A stretch of DNA of 64,000 nt from contig NZ_SMRU01000006.1 of NCBI RefSeq assembly GCF_004354015.1, forward strand, positions 1 to 64,000. Reading direction: 5' to 3'. This document shows positions 30,974 through 40,943 of this stretch, piece by piece. How positions within the stretch are numbered: position 1 is the stretch's first letter; every line of letters begins with the position of its first letter. Origin of the DNA: Arthrobacter terricola (GTDB lineage: Bacteria; Actinomycetota; Actinomycetes; Actinomycetales; Micrococcaceae). The notes under the pieces are model-generated. The model ran no database searches and was not told the origin of the DNA. It was given only the letters and a program-made list of their open reading frames with translations. Made by a program: the position numbers and the translations under genes.

Positions 30974-33469
30974 TTACGCACCTCGAAGAGTGACGACGGC
31001 GTCGAGGTCCAGTTTGCTGACCGACGTCCCGATGCGGAGGCGGTAATCCCCGGGTTCGTATTGCCAGCCGTTGTCCCAATAGGCCAGCAGGCGCGTGGGC
31101 ACACTGAGCGTGGCGGTGACGGTTTCGCCCGCCCCGGCAGTGACCGGGACGGACGCGACAAGCCAGCGAACCGGCCGGTCTACGGCGGAATCGGGCCGTT
31201 CGGCGTACACCTGCACCACTTGCTTGCCGTGACGGGAGCCCGTATTGGTTACCGTGACGGCAAGCGGCACAGCAGAGCCGGCTTCGGCAACACCGCCAGC
31301 GATCTCGACGGCGTCAAGCGCCCACGTCGTGTACCCGAGGCCGAATCCAAATTCGTAAGCAGGTTCCGCGTCGGTTTTCAGCCACGCCCGGTAGCCGATA
31401 TGGATGCCTTCGTCGTAACTGAGCTTGCCTTCGGCGTCCGGTGTGGTGTTCAGGACGGGCACGTCTTCCTGCGCGGCCGGCCAGGTGGTGGGGAGCCGGC
31501 CGCCTGGTTCCGCTTCGCCCGTGAGGATGTCCGCGAGCGCCGTCCCGAATTCCTGGCCGCCGAAGTAGGTCAGAAGGATCGCGGAGACGTCCTGGCGCCA
31601 CGGCATCAGGACCGGCGAACCGGAATTGACCACCACCACCGTGCGCGGATTCGCCTCGGCTACGGCGTGCACCAGGCGGTCTTGCAGTCCGGGCAGTTCC
31701 AAGGACGTGCGGTCGTAGCCTTCCGATTCCACGCGTGAGTTGGTGCCGACTACGACGACGGCGACGTCGGCAGCGCGGGCGGCCGCAACCGCGTCGGCGA
31801 TCAATGCTTCCGGGTCGGGCTGAGCCGCTTCCAGGCCTATGGTCACCGCCAAGGCGTTGGAGAGGGCGTCATCGCCGTCGTCGAGGTCCAGTTCCACCAT
31901 GACCTCGAGCGGGGTGCCGGCGGTGGCTTCGACGCGCACTGATGCCGAGGGTGGGGCGAGGAACGCCGCGCCCAGGTCCGTGCCGCTCGCTTCGATACTT
32001 GCTTCGTGCAGGAGGACACCATCCACGAAGATCCTGCCGTGGCCCACGGTAGCGAAGCCGAGCTGGATTGAACCGCTGATTTCAGGCGTGTAGAAAGTAT
32101 GGAATCGGACCATGGACGATTCCTCGATGGGCACGTCGCCGCCAAACCAGACCAAGGCAGTGGAGCGGCGGTCCTCGGCGAACAGTTCCTGGCCGGTGGA
32201 GTCGTAGAACTGCGCGCGCAGGCCAGGCTCCCCCGTCACCGGGTTCCTGAGTTGTGCGAGGGGTAGTTCGGCAACGCCCTCCTGAACCACCGCGCCCACG
32301 CTGTACGTGACGTTTTCGGCCCCGAACGCCGCTTGGATTCCGTCCAGCGGCGTAACGATCCTCTCCGGGACCACGGTGGCCGATCCGCCGCCTTGGGTCC
32401 TGGCGTGGAGGGCGTTGTGCCCGATCACGGCGAGCTTCACCGCCGACGCCAGGACCAGCGGCAGCACGCCGTCGTTCTTCACCATGACGGTACCGGCAAC
32501 GGACGCTTCGCGAGCGAACGCGAGCGGGTCTTCCCGGTCCGACGGTTCTGCCGCCACGGGCTCGAAGCCTTCCAACGCCCCCACCCGGGCCGCGAGTTGC
32601 AGGATGCGCAGCACCTTCCGGTCGACGGCGTCCTCGGAGACCTCGCCGTCCTTGACTGCCGCGACGAGCGCGGAACCCCAAGGGCCGTCCGGGCCGGGCA
32701 TGACGAGGTCCTGGGAATGCCGGGCGCTCTCCAGGCTGCGTACCGCGGTCCAGTCGCTGACGACAACGCCGTCGAATCCCCACTCGCTGTTCAACGGCGT
32801 TTCCAGCAGCTCATTCTCGGTAGCTGTGGTGCCGTTGATCGAGTTGTACGCACTCATGACGAGCCAGGCGCGCGACTCGACAATCGCCTTCTCGAACGCC
32901 AGGAGGTATAGCTCCCGCAGGGGTCGTTCGGCCACGAGCGCGTCAACGGTGAAGCGGTCGGTCTCGGAATCGTTGGCGACGTAGTGCTTGGGCGTCGCGC
33001 CCACGCCGTTGCGCTGCACTCCCGCCACATACGCCGCGGCAAGCTCCGCCGTCAGGACCGGATCTTCGCTGAACGCCTCAAAGTGCCTGCCGCCGAGCGG
33101 CGAGCGGTGCAGGTTGATGGTGGGCCCGAGAACGACGTCGACTCCCTTGCGTCGCGCTTCGACGGCGGAGGCGGCGCCCAGGCGATCCGCGATCGCGGGA
33201 TCCCACGAAGAACTGATGGCCGTCGCGGAGGGGAAGTTCATGGACGGTTCACGCTCGTCCCACACCTCGCCCCGGACGCCAGTGGGACCGTCAGAGAACA
33301 GCATTCGGCGCAAGCCGATCTTCTCGAGGGGCCATGTTGTCCAGAAGTCCCGGCCAGTGAGCAAGCGGACTTTCTCCCCGAGGCTGAGCTGGGCAAGGAG
33401 GTCTTCGAGTCGAGCGTCCGTGAGCGCTTCGAGCCGGGCGTCCGCGCCCGGTTCCGCTTGAGTTTCCAT
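30974..33469 (-). CDS. Beta-glucosidase, GH3 family with PA14 domain
   Basis: An 831-aa intracellular enzyme with no signal peptide. Order: GH3 N-terminal barrel (FSDGPTGVRGEVWDE; PTINLHRSPLGGRHFEAFSE; nucleophile Asp in FDGVVVSDWTAV), GH3 C-terminal domain (VKLAVIGHNAL) interrupted by a PA14 domain (residues about 385-525; FYDSTGQELF, HGRIFVDGVLLHEA), then the rest of the C-domain (ELPGLQDRLVHAVAEANPRT, GQEFGTALADILTGEAEPGG) and a fibronectin-III-like end (VTNTGSRHGKQVVQVYA). This layout suits exo-acting beta-glucosidases on plant oligosaccharides. It stands alone and is convergent with hutG, 6 bp apart. Confidence 0.93.
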   Translation of the reverse strand: METQAEPGADARLEALTDARLEDLLAQLSLGEKVRLLTGRDFWTTWPLEKIGLRRMLFSDGPTGVRGEVWDEREPSMNFPSATAISSSWDPAIADRLGAASAVEARRKGVDVVLGPTINLHRSPLGGRHFEAFSEDPVLTAELAAAYVAGVQRNGVGATPKHYVANDSETDRFTVDALVAERPLRELYLLAFEKAIVESRAWLVMSAYNSINGTTATENELLETPLNSEWGFDGVVVSDWTAVRSLESARHSQDLVMPGPDGPWGSALVAAVKDGEVSEDAVDRKVLRILQLAARVGALEGFEPVAAEPSDREDPLAFAREASVAGTVMVKNDGVLPLVLASAVKLAVIGHNALHARTQGGGSATVVPERIVTPLDGIQAAFGAENVTYSVGAVVQEGVAELPLAQLRNPVTGEPGLRAQFYDSTGQELFAEDRRSTALVWFGGDVPIEESSMVRFHTFYTPEISGSIQLGFATVGHGRIFVDGVLLHEASIEASGTDLGAAFLAPPSASVRVEATAGTPLEVMVELDLDDGDDALSNALAVTIGLEAAQPDPEALIADAVAAARAADVAVVVVGTNSRVESEGYDRTSLELPGLQDRLVHAVAEANPRTVVVVNSGSPVLMPWRQDVSAILLTYFGGQEFGTALADILTGEAEPGGRLPTTWPAAQEDVPVLNTTPDAEGKLSYDEGIHIGYRAWLKTDAEPAYEFGFGLGYTTWALDAVEIAGGVAEAGSAVPLAVTVTNTGSRHGKQVVQVYAERPDSAVDRPVRWLVASVPVTAGAGETVTATLSVPTRLLAYWDNGWQYEPGDYRLRIGTSVSKLDLDAVVTLRGA

Positions 33470-33679: not shown

Positions 33680-33750
33680 CGTGGTGTACCCAAGAGGCCA
33701 GGGAGCTGCCTGCAAAGCAGCGCACGCGGGTTCGAATCCCGCCACCACGT
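33680..33750 (+). tRNA. tRNA-Cys (GCA)
   Basis: Cloverleaf on the plus strand: acceptor CGTGGTG/CACCACG, anticodon loop CTGCAAA (anticodon GCA) on a GCTGC/GCAGC stem, T arm GCGGG/CCCGC and discriminator T, as expected for Cys. Length 71, CCA not encoded. The gene is isolated between the beta-glucosidase and the FadR regulator. Confidence 0.95.
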
Positions 33751-33805
33751 CTCTTTGGGTGTGTGGGCCGCTACTGCGGCAGGCGGTTACTGCGCTGAAC
33801 TTCTA

Positions 33806-34564
33806 CTACTGCGAGCTGCTGGCTGCGTCGTAGCCCGCCAAGAGCCGCCGCGATGCCGTGCCCATGTGCGAGACCATGGCCTCGGTGACGAGTGCGGGAT
33901 CGCGGGATTCGAGGGCTTTGAAGATAGCGCGGTGCTCCGAGAGGGCAGCGGCCGCGTGGCCTTCGTCGGTCAGTGCCCGGTCCACCCAGATCCTCAGGAG
34001 CGACCGGATGCTCTGGAGCAGTTCCTGGAGGACCTGGTTTCCGGAGGCCGCGGCGATTTCCTTGTGGAACGCGGCATCTGCCTCGACGAACACCGCGAGG
34101 TTGTCGAGTCCGGACTCCATCGCATCGAGGTCGGCCCGCATGCGCTCCAGAGCTTCGTCACTGATCCTGGTGGCGGCCAACTGGACGGCTTGGACCTCCA
34201 AGCCGCTGCGCAATTCGACCAACTCGCGCGTGCGCGGCTCACCCAGCATGAGTCCCCAACTGAGCGTGCGCGGCAAAAGTTCGGAGACGCCGTCGCGCAG
34301 GTAGGTCCCGGATCCCGGCCGGACGATGACGATCCCGAGGATCTCCAAGGCGGCCAGTGCTTCGCGCACCGCGGAACGTCCGACGCCGAGCGAAGCCGCC
34401 AGCTGCCGTTCGGCAGGAAGGCGCGTCCCGGCTGCGATGTCGCCGCTCGTGAAGTACGCAAGCAGCCGCTCCGCAACCTCGGAAACGACGGAGCCGTGCT
34501 CCATGGGTGCAAGGGCTGCCGTGATGTGGGCCGCTGCGGCCGCGGAATTTACTGACACATTCAC
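33806..34564 (-). CDS. FadR-family (GntR) regulator of the apionate/tetrulose operon
   Basis: A 252-aa regulator. The GntR winged helix (VVSEVAERLLAYFTSGDIAA, LPAERQLAASLGVGRSAVRE, GIVIVRPGSGTYLRD) is followed by an all-helical FCD effector domain whose likely metal ligands are the Asp/His/His residues in VEADAAFHKEI, and LSEHRAIFKALESRD with VSHMGTASRRL. FCD regulators usually sense sugar acids or other carboxylates. The gene is divergent from the six-gene catabolic operon, and near-identical palindromic sites lie 7 bp upstream of its own ATG and in front of the operon. ATG 34504 is an alternative start. Confidence 0.92.
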   Translation of the reverse strand: MNVSVNSAAAAAHITAALAPMEHGSVVSEVAERLLAYFTSGDIAAGTRLPAERQLAASLGVGRSAVREALAALEILGIVIVRPGSGTYLRDGVSELLPRTLSWGLMLGEPRTRELVELRSGLEVQAVQLAATRISDEALERMRADLDAMESGLDNLAVFVEADAAFHKEIAAASGNQVLQELLQSIRSLLRIWVDRALTDEGHAAAALSEHRAIFKALESRDPALVTEAMVSHMGTASRRLLAGYDAASSSQ

Positions 34565-34570
34565 AGCGTA

Positions 34571-34589
34571 GCAACCGGATGACCAATTT
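34571..34589. promoter_or_regulatory. FadR-type operator copy next to the regulator gene
   Basis: GCAACCGGATGACCAATTT matches the stronger site at 34626-34644 in 17 of 19 positions. It begins 7 bp upstream of the regulator start codon, suiting autoregulation. Confidence 0.5.
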
Positions 34590-34624
34590 CGCCTGACGAG
34601 CCGGACCGTCCCATCGAGTGATCA

Positions 34625-34644
34625 GTCAACCGGTTGACCAATTT
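34625..34644. promoter_or_regulatory. FadR-type operator for the catabolic operon (perfect palindrome)
   Basis: GTCAACCGGTTGAC (34625-34638) is a perfect 14-bp palindrome followed by CAATTT, a flank shared with the other copy. It sits between the two divergent genes, about 125 bp upstream of the transporter start, and likely overlaps the operon promoter. Confidence 0.6.
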
Positions 34645-34766
34645 AGATTTCAGTCCTATGGTTGAAATCACACGTTCACGTCGCCGGGTGCTACCGGCAA
34701 AATCACGAGCCAACCCGGCACCTCCAGTGCAGGAGCCACCGGGATACCCAATACCAAGGAGTCAAT

Positions 34767-36134
34767 GTGGACACCACGCAATCAGTGGTCGAACGCTCGA
34801 CAATCAAGAAGGTCGCGATCCGGCTGGTGCCGTTCGTTGCCCTGATGTTCTTCATCAATTACCTGGACCGGACGGCCATTTCCTTCGCCGGCCCCAACGG
34901 AATGACCACGGACCTGGCGCTTTCCGCTGCGCAGTTCGGCTTCGCTTCCGGTGTCTTCTTCATTGGCTACATCCTGTTGGAAGTCCCCAGCAACCTGGCC
35001 CTGCACAAGTTCGGCGCACGCCGCTGGCTCGCGCGAATCATGGTCAGCTGGGGCATCGTCTCCTTGCTGTTCACCTGGGTGGGCAACGTGGAACAGCTCT
35101 ACATCCTCCGCTTCGCCTTGGGCGTGGCCGAGGCCGGCTTCTTCCCAGGCGCCATCCTCTTCCTGAGCCTCTGGGTACCGGCCAAGCACCGCAGCAAGAT
35201 CCTCGCCCTCTTCTACTTGGCACAACCCCTCACCACGGTGGTAGGCGCCCCGCTTGCCGGTGCCCTCATCCAGCAGCACAACGTCTTCTTCGGCCTTGAG
35301 GGCTGGCGTTTCATGTTCTTCGGCGTGGCCATCCCCGCCATCCTGATCGGCGTGATCTCCTGGTTCTACCTGGCCGACTCACCCGCCAAGGCCAAGTGGC
35401 TGACCTCCGAGGAAAAGACCTGGCTGATCGGCGCGCTCGAAAAGGAAAAGAGCGCGACGTCGGACGGCGGCAAGCACGCAAGCGTCCGGACCGTCTTCGG
35501 AAACGGCCGCGTCTGGATGCTCTCTGCTATCTACTTCGGCTTCATCTACGGCCTCTATGCCCTCGGGTTCTTCCTGCCCACCATCATCAAGGGCTTCGAG
35601 ACCCAGTTCGGTTCGAAATTCGACGTCTTCCAGCAAGGCCTCATCACGGCAATCCCCTACCTGCCCGCGGCCGTCGCCTTGTACTTCTGGTCGAAGGACG
35701 CCACGAAGCGCGGCGTCAAGACGTGGCACATCGCAGTTCCCGCACTTACCGGAGCAATCAGCATCCCGCTGGCTCTGTTCGCAGGCTCTCCGGCCGCGAC
35801 GATCGCCGTCATCACCATCACGGCCATGTCCATCTTCGCGGCACTGCCGAACTTCTGGACCGTCCCCACGCAATTCCTCACGGGCGCCGCAGCCGCGGCC
35901 GGCATCGCGCTGATCAACACCGTTGGAAACCTGGCCGGCTTCAGCGCGGGCTACATCACGGGCTGGCTCAAGGACTGGACCGGCAGCTACACAGTACCGA
36001 TGTTCGTCGTCGGCGGTTTCATGTTCCTGTCCTCGATCCTCATGGTCGTACTCAGCCGCCGGGGAAAAGCGCCTGAGGGGCTGCGCGCAACCGCAATGGA
36101 TACCGCAGCCGCCGGCAAGCCCTCCCAAGGCTGA
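34767..36134 (+). CDS. MFS transporter, anion:cation symporter type (sugar-acid importer)
   Basis: A 455-aa, 12-helix permease. LMFFINYLDRTAISFAGP in helix 1, GYILLEVPSNLALHKFGARR with the family ARRW turn, and RFALGVAEAGFFPGAILFLS are characteristic of the ACS family that brings in galactonate, glucarate, tartrate and similar carboxylates. I chose GTG 34767 because AAGGAG lies 5 nt upstream and it matches the family N-terminus; a frame from 34662 has no support. As first gene of the operon, it most likely imports the operon's substrate, arguing for a sugar acid such as D-apionate rather than a neutral polyol. Confidence 0.9.
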   Translation: MDTTQSVVERSTIKKVAIRLVPFVALMFFINYLDRTAISFAGPNGMTTDLALSAAQFGFASGVFFIGYILLEVPSNLALHKFGARRWLARIMVSWGIVSLLFTWVGNVEQLYILRFALGVAEAGFFPGAILFLSLWVPAKHRSKILALFYLAQPLTTVVGAPLAGALIQQHNVFFGLEGWRFMFFGVAIPAILIGVISWFYLADSPAKAKWLTSEEKTWLIGALEKEKSATSDGGKHASVRTVFGNGRVWMLSAIYFGFIYGLYALGFFLPTIIKGFETQFGSKFDVFQQGLITAIPYLPAAVALYFWSKDATKRGVKTWHIAVPALTGAISIPLALFAGSPAATIAVITITAMSIFAALPNFWTVPTQFLTGAAAAAGIALINTVGNLAGFSAGYITGWLKDWTGSYTVPMFVVGGFMFLSSILMVVLSRRGKAPEGLRATAMDTAAAGKPSQG

Positions 36135-36191
36135 TCCCACCTTCCCCACCCCCACCCGAGCCTTTCCGCACACTGTTTCCAGGAGTTCCGC

Positions 36192-37946
36192 ATGACCCGT
36201 TTGTTCAATGAGCCCTCGGCTTTTGCTGATGAGATGATCGAGGGTTTCGTCGCGTCGCATGGCCGGTGGGTGCGCCGGGTGCCTGGCGGGGTAGCCCGCA
36301 GCACCCGCAGCACTCCGGGTTCAGTGGCGTTGGTGATCGGTGGCGGTTCGGGCCATTACCCGGCGTTCGCCGGTTTGGTCGGGCAGGGCCTGGCCCATGG
36401 CGCGGCGATGGGGAATTTGTTCGCGTCCCCGTCCGCGCAGCAGGTTTACAACGTGGCCAAGGCCGCGGACAACGGCGGCGGGATCCTGCTGGGCTACGGC
36501 AACTATGCCGGAGACGTGCTGCACTTCACCCAGGCCCAGGACAAGCTCCGCGCCGAAGGCATCGATTGCCGCAGCATCGCCGTCACTGACGACATTTCCT
36601 CCGCACCGCTGGCCGAGAAGCACAAGCGCCGTGGCATCGCCGGTGACCTGACCGTCTTCAAGGTCGCCGCGGCGGCAGCCGAGGCCGGCTACCCCCTGGA
36701 CGCCGTCGTCGGGATCGCCGAACGCGCCAACGAACGCACCCGCTCCTTCGGCGTCGCGTTCACCGGCTGCACCCTGCCCGGCGCCCCCGAACCGCTGTTC
36801 ACGGTCCCCGCGGGCCGGATGGCCGTCGGGATGGGCATCCATGGCGAGCCGGGCATCGGCGAAACGGGGATCCCGACGGCGGACGAACTCGCCGAACTGC
36901 TCGTCAAAGACCTCCTCGCCGAGGTCCCCGACGGACTGCAGATCCAAGGCGCGCGGGTGGTGCCGATCCTCAACGGCCTGGGCAGCGTGAAATACGAAGA
37001 ACTGTTCGTTCTCTACCGCCGCGTCGCGCAACTCTTGGCCGAGGCCGGGATCATCGCGGTGGACCCGCAGGTCGGCGAACTCGTCACGAGCTTCGACATG
37101 GCCGGGACCTCCCTGACCCTCTTCTGGCTCGACCCCGAACTCGAGCAACTGTGGCTTGCCCCGGCGGATGCGCCCGCGTTCCGCCGCGGCGCCGTGACCG
37201 CGGAAGCGCTCGACGCCGATGAACTCACCGCCGCTGCCGAGCAGCTCACCGTGATCCCGGACGCCTCTGACGAGTCCAAAGCATCAGCCACCGCCGTGCT
37301 GGCCGCCCTCCACGCGGCGAAAGCCGTGATCGACGCGAACGTGGCCGAACTCGGCCGCATCGACGCGATCGCCGGAGACGGTGACCACGGCATCGGCATG
37401 GAACGCGGAATCCACGCCGCCACCGCGGCCGCGGCAGACGCCGTCGAACGCGGGGCCGGTGCCGGGACCGTACTGGAACTGGCCGCGGACGCCTGGGCCG
37501 ACAAAGCCGGCGGCACCTCCGGAGCGCTGTGGGGCATGGCCCTGCGCGCCGTCGGACACGCCGTGGGGAACACCGAACGCCCCACCGCGCAGGCCGTGGC
37601 CGCCGGAGTGGCCGAAGCGAAACGCTCCATCATGGACTTCGGCAAAGCCAAAGTCGGGGACAAAACCCTCGTGGACGTCCTGGCCCCCTTCAGCGACGCC
37701 CTCACCGCCGCCGTCACCGACGGTTCCCGGTTGCGGGACGCCTGGGGCACCGCGGCCGCGGTCGCCGAGCAGGCCGCCGAAGCCACCGCGACCCTGCTGC
37801 CCCTCATGGGCCGCGCCCGGCCGCACGCCGAAAAAAGCCTCGGCACCCCCGACGCCGGCGCGGTCTCCATGGCCCTGATCATCCGCGCCATCCACAACAC
37901 CCTCACCGACACCACTGTCACGACCCTTCTGAAGGAGAACGCATGA
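36192..37946 (+). CDS. Dihydroxyacetone/tetrulose kinase, fused DhaK-DhaL (LerK-like)
   Basis: A 584-aa ATP-dependent kinase. The DhaK half has [20 protein letters not shown] and the covalent substrate-binding His in [12 protein letters not shown] (H217). The DhaL half (from about residue 360) has the Mg-ATP motif [14 protein letters not shown] near residue 395 and [16 protein letters not shown]. The fused form resembles dihydroxyacetone kinase and the L- or D-erythrulose kinases known from mycobacteria. In this operon, with two tetrulose-phosphate isomerase-like genes, L-erythrulose 1-phosphorylation fits best. It starts 57 bp after the transporter and its stop overlaps the rpiB-like ATG. 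Codon choice is extremely GC-rich and uniform from here to 40.9 kb. Confidence 0.9.
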
Positions 37947-38413
37947 GCGCCGCACTACGCCTGGTCATCGGATCCGACGACGCCGGATACGACTACAAAG
38001 AAGCCCTCAAAACCGACCTGCAAGCCAACCCCCTGGTCGAATCCGTAACCGACGTCGGGGTCGACGCCGCATCCCACACCCCCTACCCCTCGGTGGCGAT
38101 CGCCGCCGCGGAACTCATCGCCGCCGGCAAAGCCGACCGCGCCCTGCTCATCTGCGGCACCGGCCTCGGCGTCGCGATCGCTGCGAACAAAGTCCCCGGC
38201 ATCCGCGCCGTCACCGCACACGACTCCTTCTCCGTCGAACGCGCCATCCTGTCCAACAACGCCCAGGTCCTCACCATGGGCCAACGCGTCATCGGACTCG
38301 AACTCGCCCGCCGCCTGGCCAAGGAATGGCTCACCTACACCTTCGACGAAAGCTCCGCCTCGGCCGAGAAAGTCGCACTCATTAAGGACTACGAAGGTGT
38401 CACTTCCTGCTAA
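37943..38413 (+). CDS. RpiB-family isomerase (EryI/DerI-like tetrose-phosphate isomerase)
   Basis: A 156-aa RpiB/LacAB-fold enzyme. [13 protein letters not shown] forms the phosphate/substrate loop and [15 protein letters not shown] carries the catalytic cysteine (C71). RpiB relatives in erythritol and threitol pathways interconvert D-erythrulose-4-phosphate and D-erythrose-4-phosphate; that role fits here because a kinase and a TIM-like gene flank it. A housekeeping ribose-5-phosphate role is less likely given the operon. ATGA overlap with the kinase and a 17-bp overlap with the TIM-like gene show tight coupling. Confidence 0.88.
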
Positions 38414-39269
38414 CACCCACACCGCAAACCACGACGGCGGCACCCGGCCCGGTGCCGGACCGTCCGGTGCCGACGCGCACCGACCGGGCGCGGTGATCGG
38501 GGTCAGCCTGAAAATGTACTTCGGCTACCAGCGCTCCGTGGACTACTGCCGCGAGATCGCCACCCTGGCGTTCAAGCACCCAGCCGTGGTGAACGACGAC
38601 ATCGAACTCTTCGTCCTCCCGGCCCTGCCCGCACTGCCCGAAGCGTCCCGCATCCTGGGCGCGGCCGGCGTCGGGACCGGGGCGCAGGACATCTTCTGGG
38701 AAGACGAAGGCCCCTACACCGGCGAAACCGGCGCGAAAACCATCGCCGAACTCGGAGGACGCTACGCCGAAGTCGGGCACGCCGAACGCCGCCGCATCTT
38801 CGGCGAAGACGACGCGGTCATCGGGCTGAAGACCGCCGCCGCTTACCGCAACGGCCTCACCCCAGTGCTCTGCGTCGGGGAACCAGCCGCCGGCTCGCCC
38901 GAGGAAGCGATCGCGCACTGCACCGCCGAGATCGACGCCGCCCTCAACCGGGCCGGAACACTCGGCCCCGCAGGACGCACCATCGTCGCCTACGAACCGC
39001 AATGGGCCATCGGCGCCCCCGAACCAGCCACCCCGGCTTACATCAGCGCCGTGGTCCGCGGCCTCGACGAACACCTCCGAAACCTGCCCGGCCAACACGA
39101 CAGCCGGGTCATCTACGGAGGCAGCGCCGGACCCGGACTGATCACCGAACTGGACACCGCCGTCGCCGGCCTGTTCCTCGGACGCTTCGCCCACGACCCG
39201 CAAGCACTGGCCGCCATCCTGGACGAAACCGCCGCCCGGATCGCCGCTGGCAAGGAAGTGGCGGCATGA
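38397..39269 (+). CDS. Triose-phosphate-isomerase-like protein (EryH/LerI-like)
   Basis: A 290-aa TIM-barrel enzyme. Catalytic features are [10 protein letters not shown] (His128), the base in [10 protein letters not shown] (E200) and the phosphate loop YGGSAGPG. The usual Asn of the N-x-K motif is replaced (SLKMYFGY keeps the Lys), and VGHS becomes VGHA, so it is a diverged TIM like TpiA2/EryH, which isomerises tetrulose phosphates. It also has about 30 extra, Pro/Gly-rich N-terminal residues. Start GTG 38397 lies inside the end of the rpiB-like gene after AAGGA. L-erythrulose-1-P to D-erythrulose-4-P is the most likely reaction. Confidence 0.87.
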
Positions 39270-40081
39270 GCAGAATCGGGCAGGCCAGTCGTATTGGATT
39301 AAGCAGCTACGCGTTCTTCTGGCAACTCTCAGACCAGGTCAGCAACCCGCTCACCCTCCACCAAGCCCTCGAACGCACCGCCGCCATGGGGGTGGACCTG
39401 TTCCAGATCTGCGACTACGCGCCCCTGGAGGACATGAGCGACGACGAACTCGGCGCCGTCCGGGCCACCGCGGACAACCTCGGCATCACCCTCGAGCTCG
39501 GCACGAAAGGCATCCGCCCCGAGCACCTGCGCCGCTTCCTGCACATCGCACGGATCCTCGGCTCCGCGCTGCTCCGGACCATGTTCAACGTTCCCGGACA
39601 CACCCCGGACAACGACGAAGCCACCGCGATCTTCACCGAGATCCTGCCCGAGTTCGAGGCCGCCGGGGTGCGCATCGCCGTCGAAACCTACGAACAAGTC
39701 CCCACGGAACGGATCCTGGAGGTCATCCGGGCCGTCGGCAGCCCGTACCTGGGAATCTGCTCCGACCCCGCCAACACCGTCGCGGCACTGGAGATGCCCC
39801 GTCAGGTGATCGACGCCGTCGAACCCTACGTGCTCAACATGCACATCAAAGACTTTGCGTTCAGCCGCAAACAGGGATGGGTCGGATTCACGTACTCCGG
39901 CGCACCCCTGGGCGAAGGCCTTCTCGACTACGACTACATGGTCGAAAAGATCCAACCCAAGCAAAGAAACATCAACCAAATCGTCGAACACTGGCTGCCC
40001 TGGCAGGACACCGAAACGGACACCATCCACCTCGAAAACCAGTGGACCCAGCAAAGCATCGAATTCCTAAGGAGCAAGTGA
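39266..40081 (+). CDS. Xylose-isomerase-like TIM-barrel protein (OiaC- or EryC-like)
   Basis: A 271-aa protein of the sugar-phosphate isomerase/epimerase (AP_endonuc_2) superfamily. Likely metal ligands are in AVETYEQVPTERI, GICSDPANT, LNMHIKDFAF and the C-terminal Glu/His block. The family includes EryC (tetrulose-phosphate racemase) and the 3-oxo-isoapionate decarboxylase OiaC. With the ApnO-like gene just downstream and an erythrulose-type kinase upstream, decarboxylation of 3-oxo-isoapionate to L-erythrulose is the more economical reading; racemase is the alternative. ATG 39266 overlaps the previous stop. Confidence 0.85.
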   Translation: MSRIGQASRIGLSSYAFFWQLSDQVSNPLTLHQALERTAAMGVDLFQICDYAPLEDMSDDELGAVRATADNLGITLELGTKGIRPEHLRRFLHIARILGSALLRTMFNVPGHTPDNDEATAIFTEILPEFEAAGVRIAVETYEQVPTERILEVIRAVGSPYLGICSDPANTVAALEMPRQVIDAVEPYVLNMHIKDFAFSRKQGWVGFTYSGAPLGEGLLDYDYMVEKIQPKQRNINQIVEHWLPWQDTETDTIHLENQWTQQSIEFLRSK

Positions 40082-40082
40082 A

Positions 40083-40943
40083 ATGTCAGCAGAAATATTG
40101 ACCGTGGCCGTCATCGGAGCCGGTGGCAAGATGGGGATGCGCGTTTCCCGCAACCTCCAGAAGTCCAACCACGCCGTCACCTACAGCGAGAACTCCCCCG
40201 CCGGCCAGGACCGGGTCCGCGCCGAAGGCCGCGAGATCACGGCGACTGACGACGCCGTCAAGGGCGCCGACGTCGTAATCCTCGCCGTCCCGGACACCGT
40301 CCTGGGCCTCGTCTCCGAAGGCGTTGTGCCGCAGATGAAGTCCGGCGCGATCCTGCTCACCCTGGACCCGGCCGCCGCTTACGCCGGGCTGCTGGCCAAG
40401 CGCGACGACGTCGTGCAGGCCGTTGCGCACCCGTGCCACCCGTCGGTGTTCCTCGAGCGGACCACCAAGGAAGAATGGGCCGACACCTTCGGCGGCGCAG
40501 GCGCCCCGCAGAACGTCGTTGCCGCGATCGACGACGACGCTCCCGCCTCGGCCCGCGAAGCCGCCGAAACGACCATCCGGACGATCTACGCGCCGGTCAT
40601 TGACGTGCACTGGGTCACCGTCAAGCAGCTCGCCATCCTCGAACCCACCCTCGTGGAAACCGTCGCCTGCATGATCGGCACGCTGCTCAACGAAGCCCTC
40701 CACGAGACCGTGCACACCGCCGGCGTCCCCGAGGAAGCAGCCAAGGCGATGCTCTTCGGCCACGTCCAGATCGCGCTCACCAACGCCCTGCGCGGCTCCA
40801 ACCCGTTCTCCGAGGCCTGCGAAATCGCCATCCAGTACGGCAAGGACACCATCATCAAGGACGACTGGAAGAAAATCTTCGACGACTCCGAACTCGACGG
40901 CGTCATTGCCAAGATGCTCAAGCTGGACGCCGTCAAGCGCTAA
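40083..40943 (+). CDS. 6PGDH-like oxidoreductase (D-apionate oxidoisomerase-like)
   Basis: A 286-aa NAD(P)-dependent enzyme. The Rossmann loop is VIGAGGKMGMRVSRNL (residues 10-25), followed by ADVVILAVPDTVLG and a C-terminal all-helical phosphogluconate-dehydrogenase-type domain (LVETVACMIGTLLNEALHE, AMLFGHVQIALTNALRGSNP). HPCHPSVFL is an unusual His/Cys segment near the cleft. ApnO, which oxidises D-apionate with migration of the hydroxymethyl group to give 3-oxo-isoapionate, has this two-domain layout. The start is 1 bp after the upstream stop, with GGAGCAAG before it. Specific activity is inferred from operon content. Confidence 0.85.
   Translation: MSAEILTVAVIGAGGKMGMRVSRNLQKSNHAVTYSENSPAGQDRVRAEGREITATDDAVKGADVVILAVPDTVLGLVSEGVVPQMKSGAILLTLDPAAAYAGLLAKRDDVVQAVAHPCHPSVFLERTTKEEWADTFGGAGAPQNVVAAIDDDAPASAREAAETTIRTIYAPVIDVHWVTVKQLAILEPTLVETVACMIGTLLNEALHETVHTAGVPEEAAKAMLFGHVQIALTNALRGSNPFSEACEIAIQYGKDTIIKDDWKKIFDDSELDGVIAKMLKLDAVKR

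Follow-up and report, generated by a model that had tools for sequence, protein, structure and literature searches.

A candidate D-apionate catabolic operon in Arthrobacter terricola, predicted lower half of a FadR-controlled two-locus apioside pathway

Background

Bacterial pathways for D-apiose were reportedly described by Carter et al. in 2018 (Nat Chem Biol) and are said to proceed through ApdH, ApnL and ApnO and then through either OiaC or OiaK/OiaX; ApnO, OiaC, LerK and the lactonase are named below, and assigned reactions, as reportedly done in that work. Here we analyzed a stretch of 64,000 nucleotides of Arthrobacter terricola DNA (contig NZ_SMRU01000006.1, positions 1 to 64,000; hereafter the window), which contains a six-gene operon with a divergent FadR regulator. 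Judging from sequence, this operon very probably breaks down D-apionate, the acid derived from the plant sugar apiose, and we consider it quite likely that it forms the lower half of a FadR-controlled two-locus pathway for apiosides and D-apionate, the second locus being on contig C16 (L063) of the same genome.

Similar to the apiose pathways attributed to Carter et al., the A. terricola system has the same enzyme classes and step order, an ApnO homologue and the final erythrulose phosphate isomerases. Unlike those pathways, its operon contains neither ApdH nor ApnL and groups an MFS transporter with the lower pathway, the C16 locus has an SDR in place of the Gfo/Idh-type ApdH together with a divergent ApnL-like protein, an apiosidase and an ABC importer, and the two loci share an operator motif. 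The OiaK-OiaX clusters of Rhizobium, Paracoccus and Salipiger (L007, L008, L249-L251) resemble it in the ApnO homologue and in a regulator, there annotated as NanR, and in Rhizobium sp. BT03 the TIM and RpiB genes, also found in A. terricola, lie inside the OiaX operon with DhaK/DhaL genes downstream; these clusters differ in that phosphorylation precedes decarboxylation by a RuBisCO-like protein (RLP), and in that they have an ABC importer annotated for ribose. The cassettes of Pantoea sp. At-9b (L005) and Erwinia sp. E602 (L004), which are on plasmid records and whose 6PGDH-like homologues are 63-64% identical to that of A. terricola, have the same five genes in the same order (MFS-DhaKL-TIM-isomerase-6PGDH, 52-69% identical), but with a divergent RpiB gene and a sugar-binding transcriptional regulator in place of FadR; the palindrome described below was not found in these stretches, the best matches having 3 and 4 mismatches.

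In the open-licence literature, Carter et al. 2018 is cited in PMC10176493, the Enzyme Commission names for the OiaK/OiaX version are given in PMC11747546, and RLPs are treated in PMC6302742. Papers of the same kind describe the LerK/LerI/DerI module of bacterial tetritol use (PMC10733421), EYK1 and the TIM/RpiB isomerases of Yarrowia as well as the Yarrowia and Brucella isomerases (PMC5992420), and tetrose use (PMC12780249). As presented there, the LerK-LerI-DerI and EYK1 systems share with the A. terricola operon a DAK-type kinase and the TIM-like and RpiB-like isomerases leading to D-erythrose 4-phosphate, but they are supplied by tetritol dehydrogenases rather than by ApnO and OiaC. No title among the matches listed from the open-licence literature concerned apiose catabolism in Arthrobacter.

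Results

Gene organization of the operon

Six open frames on the + strand form the operon at 34767-40943, with junctions of 57, -4, -17, -4 and 1 bp, and the FadR gene is divergent from them. The genes are as follows.

34767 to 36134, + strand: MFS transporter of the anion:cation symporter type, candidate D-apionate importer (MFS_1, 153 bits)
36192 to 37946, + strand: DhaK-DhaL fused kinase, candidate L-erythrulose 1-kinase, LerK-like (Dak1, 360 bits; Dak2, 157 bits)
37943 to 38413, + strand: RpiB-like isomerase (LacAB_rpiB; TIGR02133, RPI_actino, 202.7 bits, above the cut-off of 168.2)
38397 to 39269, + strand: diverged TIM-like isomerase (PF00121, 165 bits)
39266 to 40081, + strand: xylose-isomerase-like TIM barrel, candidate 3-oxo-isoapionate decarboxylase, OiaC-like (AP_endonuc_2, 70.5 bits)
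40083 to 40943, + strand: 6PGDH-like protein with PGDH_C, candidate D-apionate oxidoisomerase, ApnO (NAD_binding_2 and PGDH_C domains)
33806 to 34564, - strand: FadR/GntR regulator with FCD domain (GntR, 64 bits; FCD, 99 bits)

The frame of the MFS gene is listed from a TTG at 34662, and the alternative start used here, GTG 34767, is preceded by AGGAG; for the TIM-like gene later starts at 38493 or 38514 are possible. These open frames and domain matches bear out the initial annotation of this stretch, which had described six same-strand genes with overlapping or 1-57 bp junctions and a FadR regulator of their own, the latter being located just outside the interval it had given.

Distribution of the arrangement

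To describe the arrangement across genomes we used a set of 80 loci: an alignment-based scan of named genomes for the isomerase-like protein gave 187 relatives, of which the best 80 were kept. The set comprises 36 Arthrobacter-type loci, 14 from other Actinomycetota (Streptomyces, Kitasatospora, Actinoplanes, Planosporangium, Salinibacterium, Actinoalloteichus and Prauserella), 29 from Enterobacterales (Pantoea, Erwinia, Pectobacterium carotovorum, Serratia and others) and one from a metagenome-assembled genome of Propionivibrio. The full set of genes (isomerase-like, MFS, DhaKL, RpiB, TIM and 6PGDH) was found in 67 of the 80 loci, and the isomerase-like and 6PGDH-like genes were adjacent in 78, the exceptions being L173, where the contig ends, and L209, where a FadR-like gene stands between them. 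The gene set is thus not a chance assembly, and the one-operon arrangement, which the initial annotation had thought possibly undescribed, is not unique to A. terricola but common among bacteria. A FadR homologue lies upstream in 33 of the 36 Arthrobacter-type loci, the other three being short contigs, and in 13 of the 14 loci of other Actinomycetota, the exception being Prauserella (L217).

The 6PGDH-isomerase pair is kept without the kinase and the sugar-phosphate isomerases in four loci (L170, L174, L178 and L208). In two of these, L174 of Arthrobacter mobilis and L208 of Planosporangium, ApnL-like, FadR, isomerase, 6PGDH and SDR genes were matched and the MFS, kinase and sugar-phosphate isomerases were not, and the reduced form in Leminorella (L178) consists of MFS, isomerase and 6PGDH. 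Decaying copies of the operon were also seen in the genus: FadR and 6PGDH fragments remain in G001 (L061), a truncated 6PGDH remains in G009 (L060), and in G036 (L056) neither MFS nor DhaKL is found between RpiB and FadR.

The ApnO-like and OiaC-like proteins

The protein encoded at 40083-40943 has the 6PGDH-type N-domain and PGDH_C domain looked for in ApnO (PF03446, 36.8 bits; PF16896, 190.9 bits), and matches the PDB entries 5t57 (4.9e-64) and 3c24, both deposited as general oxidoreductases; we regard it as a predicted relative of ApnO. Homologues of it are carried by 251 plasmid records, from which a chosen sample of 10 distant ApnO-type loci (37-44% identical) was taken; one of these, L007, supplied the OiaX, OiaK, ApdH and ApnL queries, and in two unannotated ones, L006 and L254, gene content was determined by tblastn only. 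Genes for an OiaX-like RLP and an OiaK-like kinase lie nearby in nine of the ten, several of them carrying those names in their records, and ApdH-like and ApnL genes are found in seven, namely six of these nine and the locus of S. meliloti, where ApdH-like and ApnL-like genes are present with no RLP in the stretch. In R. leguminosarum, a neighbour of the ApnO homologue scored 1056.9 bits on the ApnL model, above the cut-off of 750.

The xylose-isomerase-like gene was found in none of the ten distant loci, and neither OiaX nor OiaK was matched at 1e-10 in the 80 isomerase-type loci. The partners of ApnO are therefore either OiaK and OiaX or the isomerase-like gene and DhaKL. Both sets of partners should yield L-erythrulose 1-phosphate, which fits the action of OiaC followed by LerK. 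In a midpoint-rooted tree of 91 proteins, which held no non-ApnO outgroup, the ten distant homologues fell on one side of a branch (97/73) beside the isomerase-linked type. The OiaX model had no match in the A. terricola genome, so that an OiaX-type route was rejected for it, and in the genus 35 of 198 genomes had matches below the cut-off and none above it. On a plasmid of the haloarchaeon Natrinema sp. (L253), a 37% identical ApnO homologue adjoins OiaK-like and RuBisCO-like genes, suggesting that the OiaK/OiaX type may extend to archaea.

The xylose-isomerase-like protein is a PF01261 barrel encoded together with ApnO, which is the context looked for in OiaC, and has two weak NCBIfam matches, neither of them an OiaC model. 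Its AlphaFold model (predicted local distance difference test score 88.5) has D-tagatose 3-epimerases as nearest folds; the model confirms the fold class, with which a decarboxylase and an isomerase are both compatible.

Importer, kinase and sugar-phosphate isomerases

The best NCBIfam match of the MFS protein is the D-galactonate transporter model TIGR00893 (271.4 bits, under the cut-off of 395), indicating the same kind of transporter but a different subfamily, in agreement with the earlier proposal of an importer suited to a sugar acid. Homologues are 62-77% identical in those non-Arthrobacter loci that have one, and in Paraburkholderia sprentiae a 66% identical homologue directly adjoins ApnO-OiaK, which links this type of MFS to the substrate of ApnO and not to the OiaC branch. 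It is thus a candidate D-apionate importer. The kinase has DhaK and DhaL domains and could be aligned to DhaK structures through the IHGEPG motif, as looked for in LerK; the His of this motif presumably binds the substrate. The RpiB-like protein, whose best PDB matches are 3qd5 and 3sdw, is one of five in the genome that match the RpiB family. The TIM-like protein matches an L-erythrulose-1-phosphate isomerase chain, 11ef, at 1.7e-30, fifth in the list after the putative TIM 3s6d (2.6e-40) and three TIMs.

On contig C76 (L232, 8218-15569) there is a second cluster, which resembles a Pararhizobium cluster (L009) and consists of RpiB, DhaKL, an SDR, a different xylose-isomerase-like gene, an MFS gene and split transketolase genes; it possibly serves a tetritol or non-oxidative apiose-type route. 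Apart from DhaKL, RpiB and the isomerase-like gene, its members were named by eye, as were a second C16 permease and the C54 genes mentioned below.

A shared operator motif

The region between FadR and the MFS gene contains the following predicted control elements.

34625 to 34638, no strand: palindrome GTCAACCGGTTGAC, predicted operator (aligned FadR-MFS spacers and genome-wide scans)
34570 to 34588, + strand: second, imperfect operator copy beside the FadR start, AGCAACCGGATGACCAATT (3 mismatches)
34634 to 34662, + strand: promoter-like site TTGACC, 17 nt, TATGGT, overlapping the palindrome (consensus scan)

We aligned 39 FadR-MFS spacers from 37 genomes, drawn from 52 loci in which FadR and MFS have the expected geometry, with identical strings removed (two pairs are from one genome each). 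The form TCAACCGGTTGACCAATT was present in all 39 and the exact 14-mer in 36. The promoter-like site was one match against 0.5 expected, which is weak alone; its -35 element overlaps the palindrome, as it would for a repressor. A scan of the whole A. terricola genome with the 19-base form returned the operon (exact), C16:19490 (one mismatch), which lies between the LacI and ABC genes, and C54:165532 (two mismatches), and three more rows at 3 mismatches, which were overlaps of these sites or the half-copy at 34570. A predicted shared control site is what links the operon to the C16 locus.

The motif was further examined in 37 genomes of the genus that we chose, 19 with and 18 without the ApnO operon, with the decayed carriers G001, G009 and G036 excluded. 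At no more than one mismatch it occurred in 19 of the 19 ApnO genomes and in 0 of the 18 others, and the reversed control was found in none of the 37. For each of the 34 motif rows (33 distinct sites), an ApnO, ApnL-like or apiosidase gene was no more than 10 kb away; at the G137:C10 site the nearby ApnO copy is a fragment. The site remains beside FadR in four genomes with no ApnL-like or apiosidase match (G010, G028, G029 and G035), and for this reason we infer FadR to be the binder. Among the 36 named Arthrobacter-type loci the exact palindrome was present in 30, and the remaining six were three short contigs, one spacer deletion and two with a G-to-A form.

Upstream steps at the C16 locus and in the genus

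The C16 locus contains LacI, an ABC importer, an Apiosidase-like hydrolase, an ApnL-like lactonase and an SDR. The hydrolase scored 57.5 bits on PF13204 (Apiosidase-like), which we take to correspond to GH140, against a cut-off of 26.5; it also has DUF5060 and DUF5605 and, by eye, no obvious signal peptide. The ApnL-like protein is 26% identical to R. leguminosarum ApnL over the alignment, with 47 columns invariant in 11 sequences. A Gfo/Idh-type ApdH was also looked for in the genome, and none of the 26 matches was convincing (best 68 bits, 26% identity). The C16 locus appears, from its predicted gene products, to release apiose from plant glycosides and to oxidize it. Accordingly, the earlier statement that apiose dehydrogenase and lactonase are lacking held for the operon but not for the genome.

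In several relatives the two parts are together: SDR, ApnL-like, FadR, MFS and the following genes form one run in G022, G065 and G004, all of the SDR, ApnL-like, apiosidase, ABC, LacI, FadR and operon genes are in one stretch in G167, and the ABC, apiosidase, ApnL-like and SDR genes are located beyond FadR in G064. In some carriers, such as L051-L054, the upstream-step genes were not found in the operon stretch; gene calls on unannotated loci were from a simple GC-frame script, by which some genes were missed. In the 198 genomes of the genus survey, ApnO was found in 73 (counting broken copies and fragments as well as G191, a 30% stray) and the ApnL-like gene in 43, with 35 shared. The apiosidase (E <= 1e-30) was found in 27, all of which have ApnO and 26 the ApnL-like gene; in G169 both apiosidase and ApnO are broken. 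The corresponding p values (Fisher, 1.5e-11 for ApnL-like with ApnO and 5e-14 for apiosidase with ApnO) are too small since genomes of one genus are not independent. The ApnL-like gene lies within 15 kb of an ApnO copy in 26 of the 35 shared genomes (a broken copy in G117 and G188).

Two further observations concern these gene families. In G004:C2:266746-273829 and G112:C1:2343968-2351029, a 41% identical apiosidase homologue has a RuBisCO-like gene at a distance of about 4-5 kb, with scores on the OiaX model of 413 and 408 bits, respectively, under the cut-off of 700; this may represent a further RLP-based route for a sugar. In L122 (12507-14555), L123 and L135, FadR is directly adjoined by an ApnL-like type of greater divergence (35-37%), which has no palindrome of its own.

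Neighboring genes

Beyond FadR lie two further features of the window.

33680 to 33751, + strand: tRNA-Cys, between the GH3 gene and FadR, a unit boundary (ARAGORN)
30974 to 33469, - strand: GH3 glycosidase beyond the tRNA-Cys, outside the operon (Glyco_hydro_3 domains)

The GH3 gene was ruled out as an operon member because the tRNA-Cys separates it from FadR and no palindrome match was found upstream of it. Homologues 79% identical to it share stretches with ApnL-like/SDR genes in two relatives (L124 and L133), and in L133 GH43 and rhamnosidase genes sit between the GH3 homologue and the apiosidase. This grouping suggests plant glycoside breakdown, and the GH3 of the window is possibly related to the same diet as the operon.

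Discussion

Starting from the observed gene content, conserved order, operator-like motif and co-occurrence, we infer the substrates, the contact of FadR with its operator and the direction of regulation. At the C16 locus, the ABC importer would take up apiosides, the apiosidase-like hydrolase would free D-apiose in the cytoplasm, the SDR would oxidize it to the lactone and the ApnL-like lactonase would yield D-apionate, which the MFS protein would also import from outside. The ApnO-like protein would then oxidize and rearrange D-apionate to 3-oxo-isoapionate, the OiaC-like protein would decarboxylate this to L-erythrulose, the DhaKL kinase (LerK) would convert it to L-erythrulose 1-phosphate, and LerI followed by DerI would carry the product on to D-erythrose 4-phosphate. 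FadR would repress the operon by binding the palindrome over the promoter until released by a pathway compound, and the C16 locus would also be under the same FadR. The D-apionate route through 3-oxo-isoapionate and L-erythrulose, already put forward in the initial annotation, is probably right, since the gene order is kept, the relatives of ApnO have the partners described, OiaK/OiaX is exchanged for the isomerase-like gene and DhaKL, the operator is shared, and the apiosidase and ApnL-like genes co-occur. A more far-reaching version, in which FadR is the master regulator of a hitherto undescribed two-locus Arthrobacter-type apioside regulon, the MFS protein serves specifically to import D-apionate and carriers of the lower half only live on D-apionate that apioside users leak in the rhizosphere, is offered tentatively, as plausible but a little short of probable.

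Several points weigh against the two-locus D-apionate pathway. The ApnO and OiaC assignments are putative, made from relatives and gene context; the RpiB-like protein scored 149.6 bits on the DerI model NF051858, below the cut-off of 240; the C16 ApnL-like protein (529 aa) reached 159 bits on NF049900, its sole NCBIfam match, under the cut-off of 750; and the apiose dehydrogenase step relies on an SDR of no specific family. In the genus, apart from the dependence among genomes mentioned above, 8 of the 43 genomes with an ApnL-like gene have no ApnO (the palindrome is absent from L130, L131 and L138, the three loci inspected of these eight). With regard to the operator, the reversed control pattern had one match in the A. 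terricola genome at no more than 3 mismatches, and C54:165532, the third exact palindrome of the genome, sits between convergent gene ends and was not accepted as a third regulon member. The exact palindrome occurs in 3 of the 44 non-Arthrobacter loci (Actinoplanes, Salinibacterium and Planosporangium), in four ApnO genomes (G123, G127, G204 and G209) no operator accompanies a distant ApnL-like locus, and G022, G064 and G067 have second copies of the apiosidase 17-23 kb away from a site. At C16, the LacI regulator could instead bind the site.

If the operon were a stand-alone scavenger of D-apionate and the C16 locus served another purpose, one could account for the lack of an ApnL-like match in 38 of the 73 ApnO-positive genomes of the genus and of an ApnL-family match in 25 of the 30 searched operon carriers outside it, as well as for an MFS transporter of sugar-acid type that recurs beside ApnO-OiaK in Paraburkholderia. 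We consider this unlikely for A. terricola, where the apiosidase/ApnL-like/SDR locus bears the operator motif of the operon, and the upstream genes are contiguous with the operon in several relatives. On the same grounds, the earlier suggestion that the cell relies on acid released by others gained no support for this genome, with its ABC-apiosidase-ApnL-like-SDR locus bearing the same motif; scavenging may apply to the other carriers lacking such matches. That the substrate is some other sugar acid, either branched or C5 (a hamamelonate-like compound, for instance), handled by enzymes resembling ApnO and OiaC, seems slightly more doubtful still: identity to the RLP-linked ApnO group is just 37-44%, and the ApnL-like and apiosidase-like proteins are divergent, but three apiose-linked signals converge, namely a PF13204 score above the cut-off, a lactonase-like protein at C16 that matches ApnL alone among the NCBIfam models, and the location of ApnO homologues next to OiaX/OiaK.

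We regard as least probable of all a role of the operon in the use of a tetrulose or tetritol (L-erythrulose, erythritol or threitol), with side reactions for the 6PGDH-like and isomerase-like proteins. Its DhaKL, TIM-like and RpiB-like parts do match the tetritol routes described in PMC5992420 and PMC10733421. However, no tetritol dehydrogenase is among the operon genes, and erythritol or threitol use was rejected as the chief role because no part of the loci is as constant as the isomerase-6PGDH pair, which is kept in the four loci without kinase and isomerases, and because a separate RpiB-DhaKL-SDR-isomerase-transketolase cluster exists on C76.

The two-locus pathway for apiosides and D-apionate thus provides a regulator, an operator and a gene set, all predicted, for apioside use in common soil actinobacteria, and proposes a D-apionate importer. 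Within the open-licence literature matches listed, what is new is the operator motif common to both loci, the division of the pathway between two loci and the SDR/apiosidase version seen in Arthrobacter-type bacteria. Across bacteria, the step from ApnO to erythrulose 1-phosphate would be covered by two apparently interchangeable routes, OiaK/OiaX or OiaC/LerK, and if it is true that many carriers import the acid alone, D-apionate would be a cross-fed metabolite.

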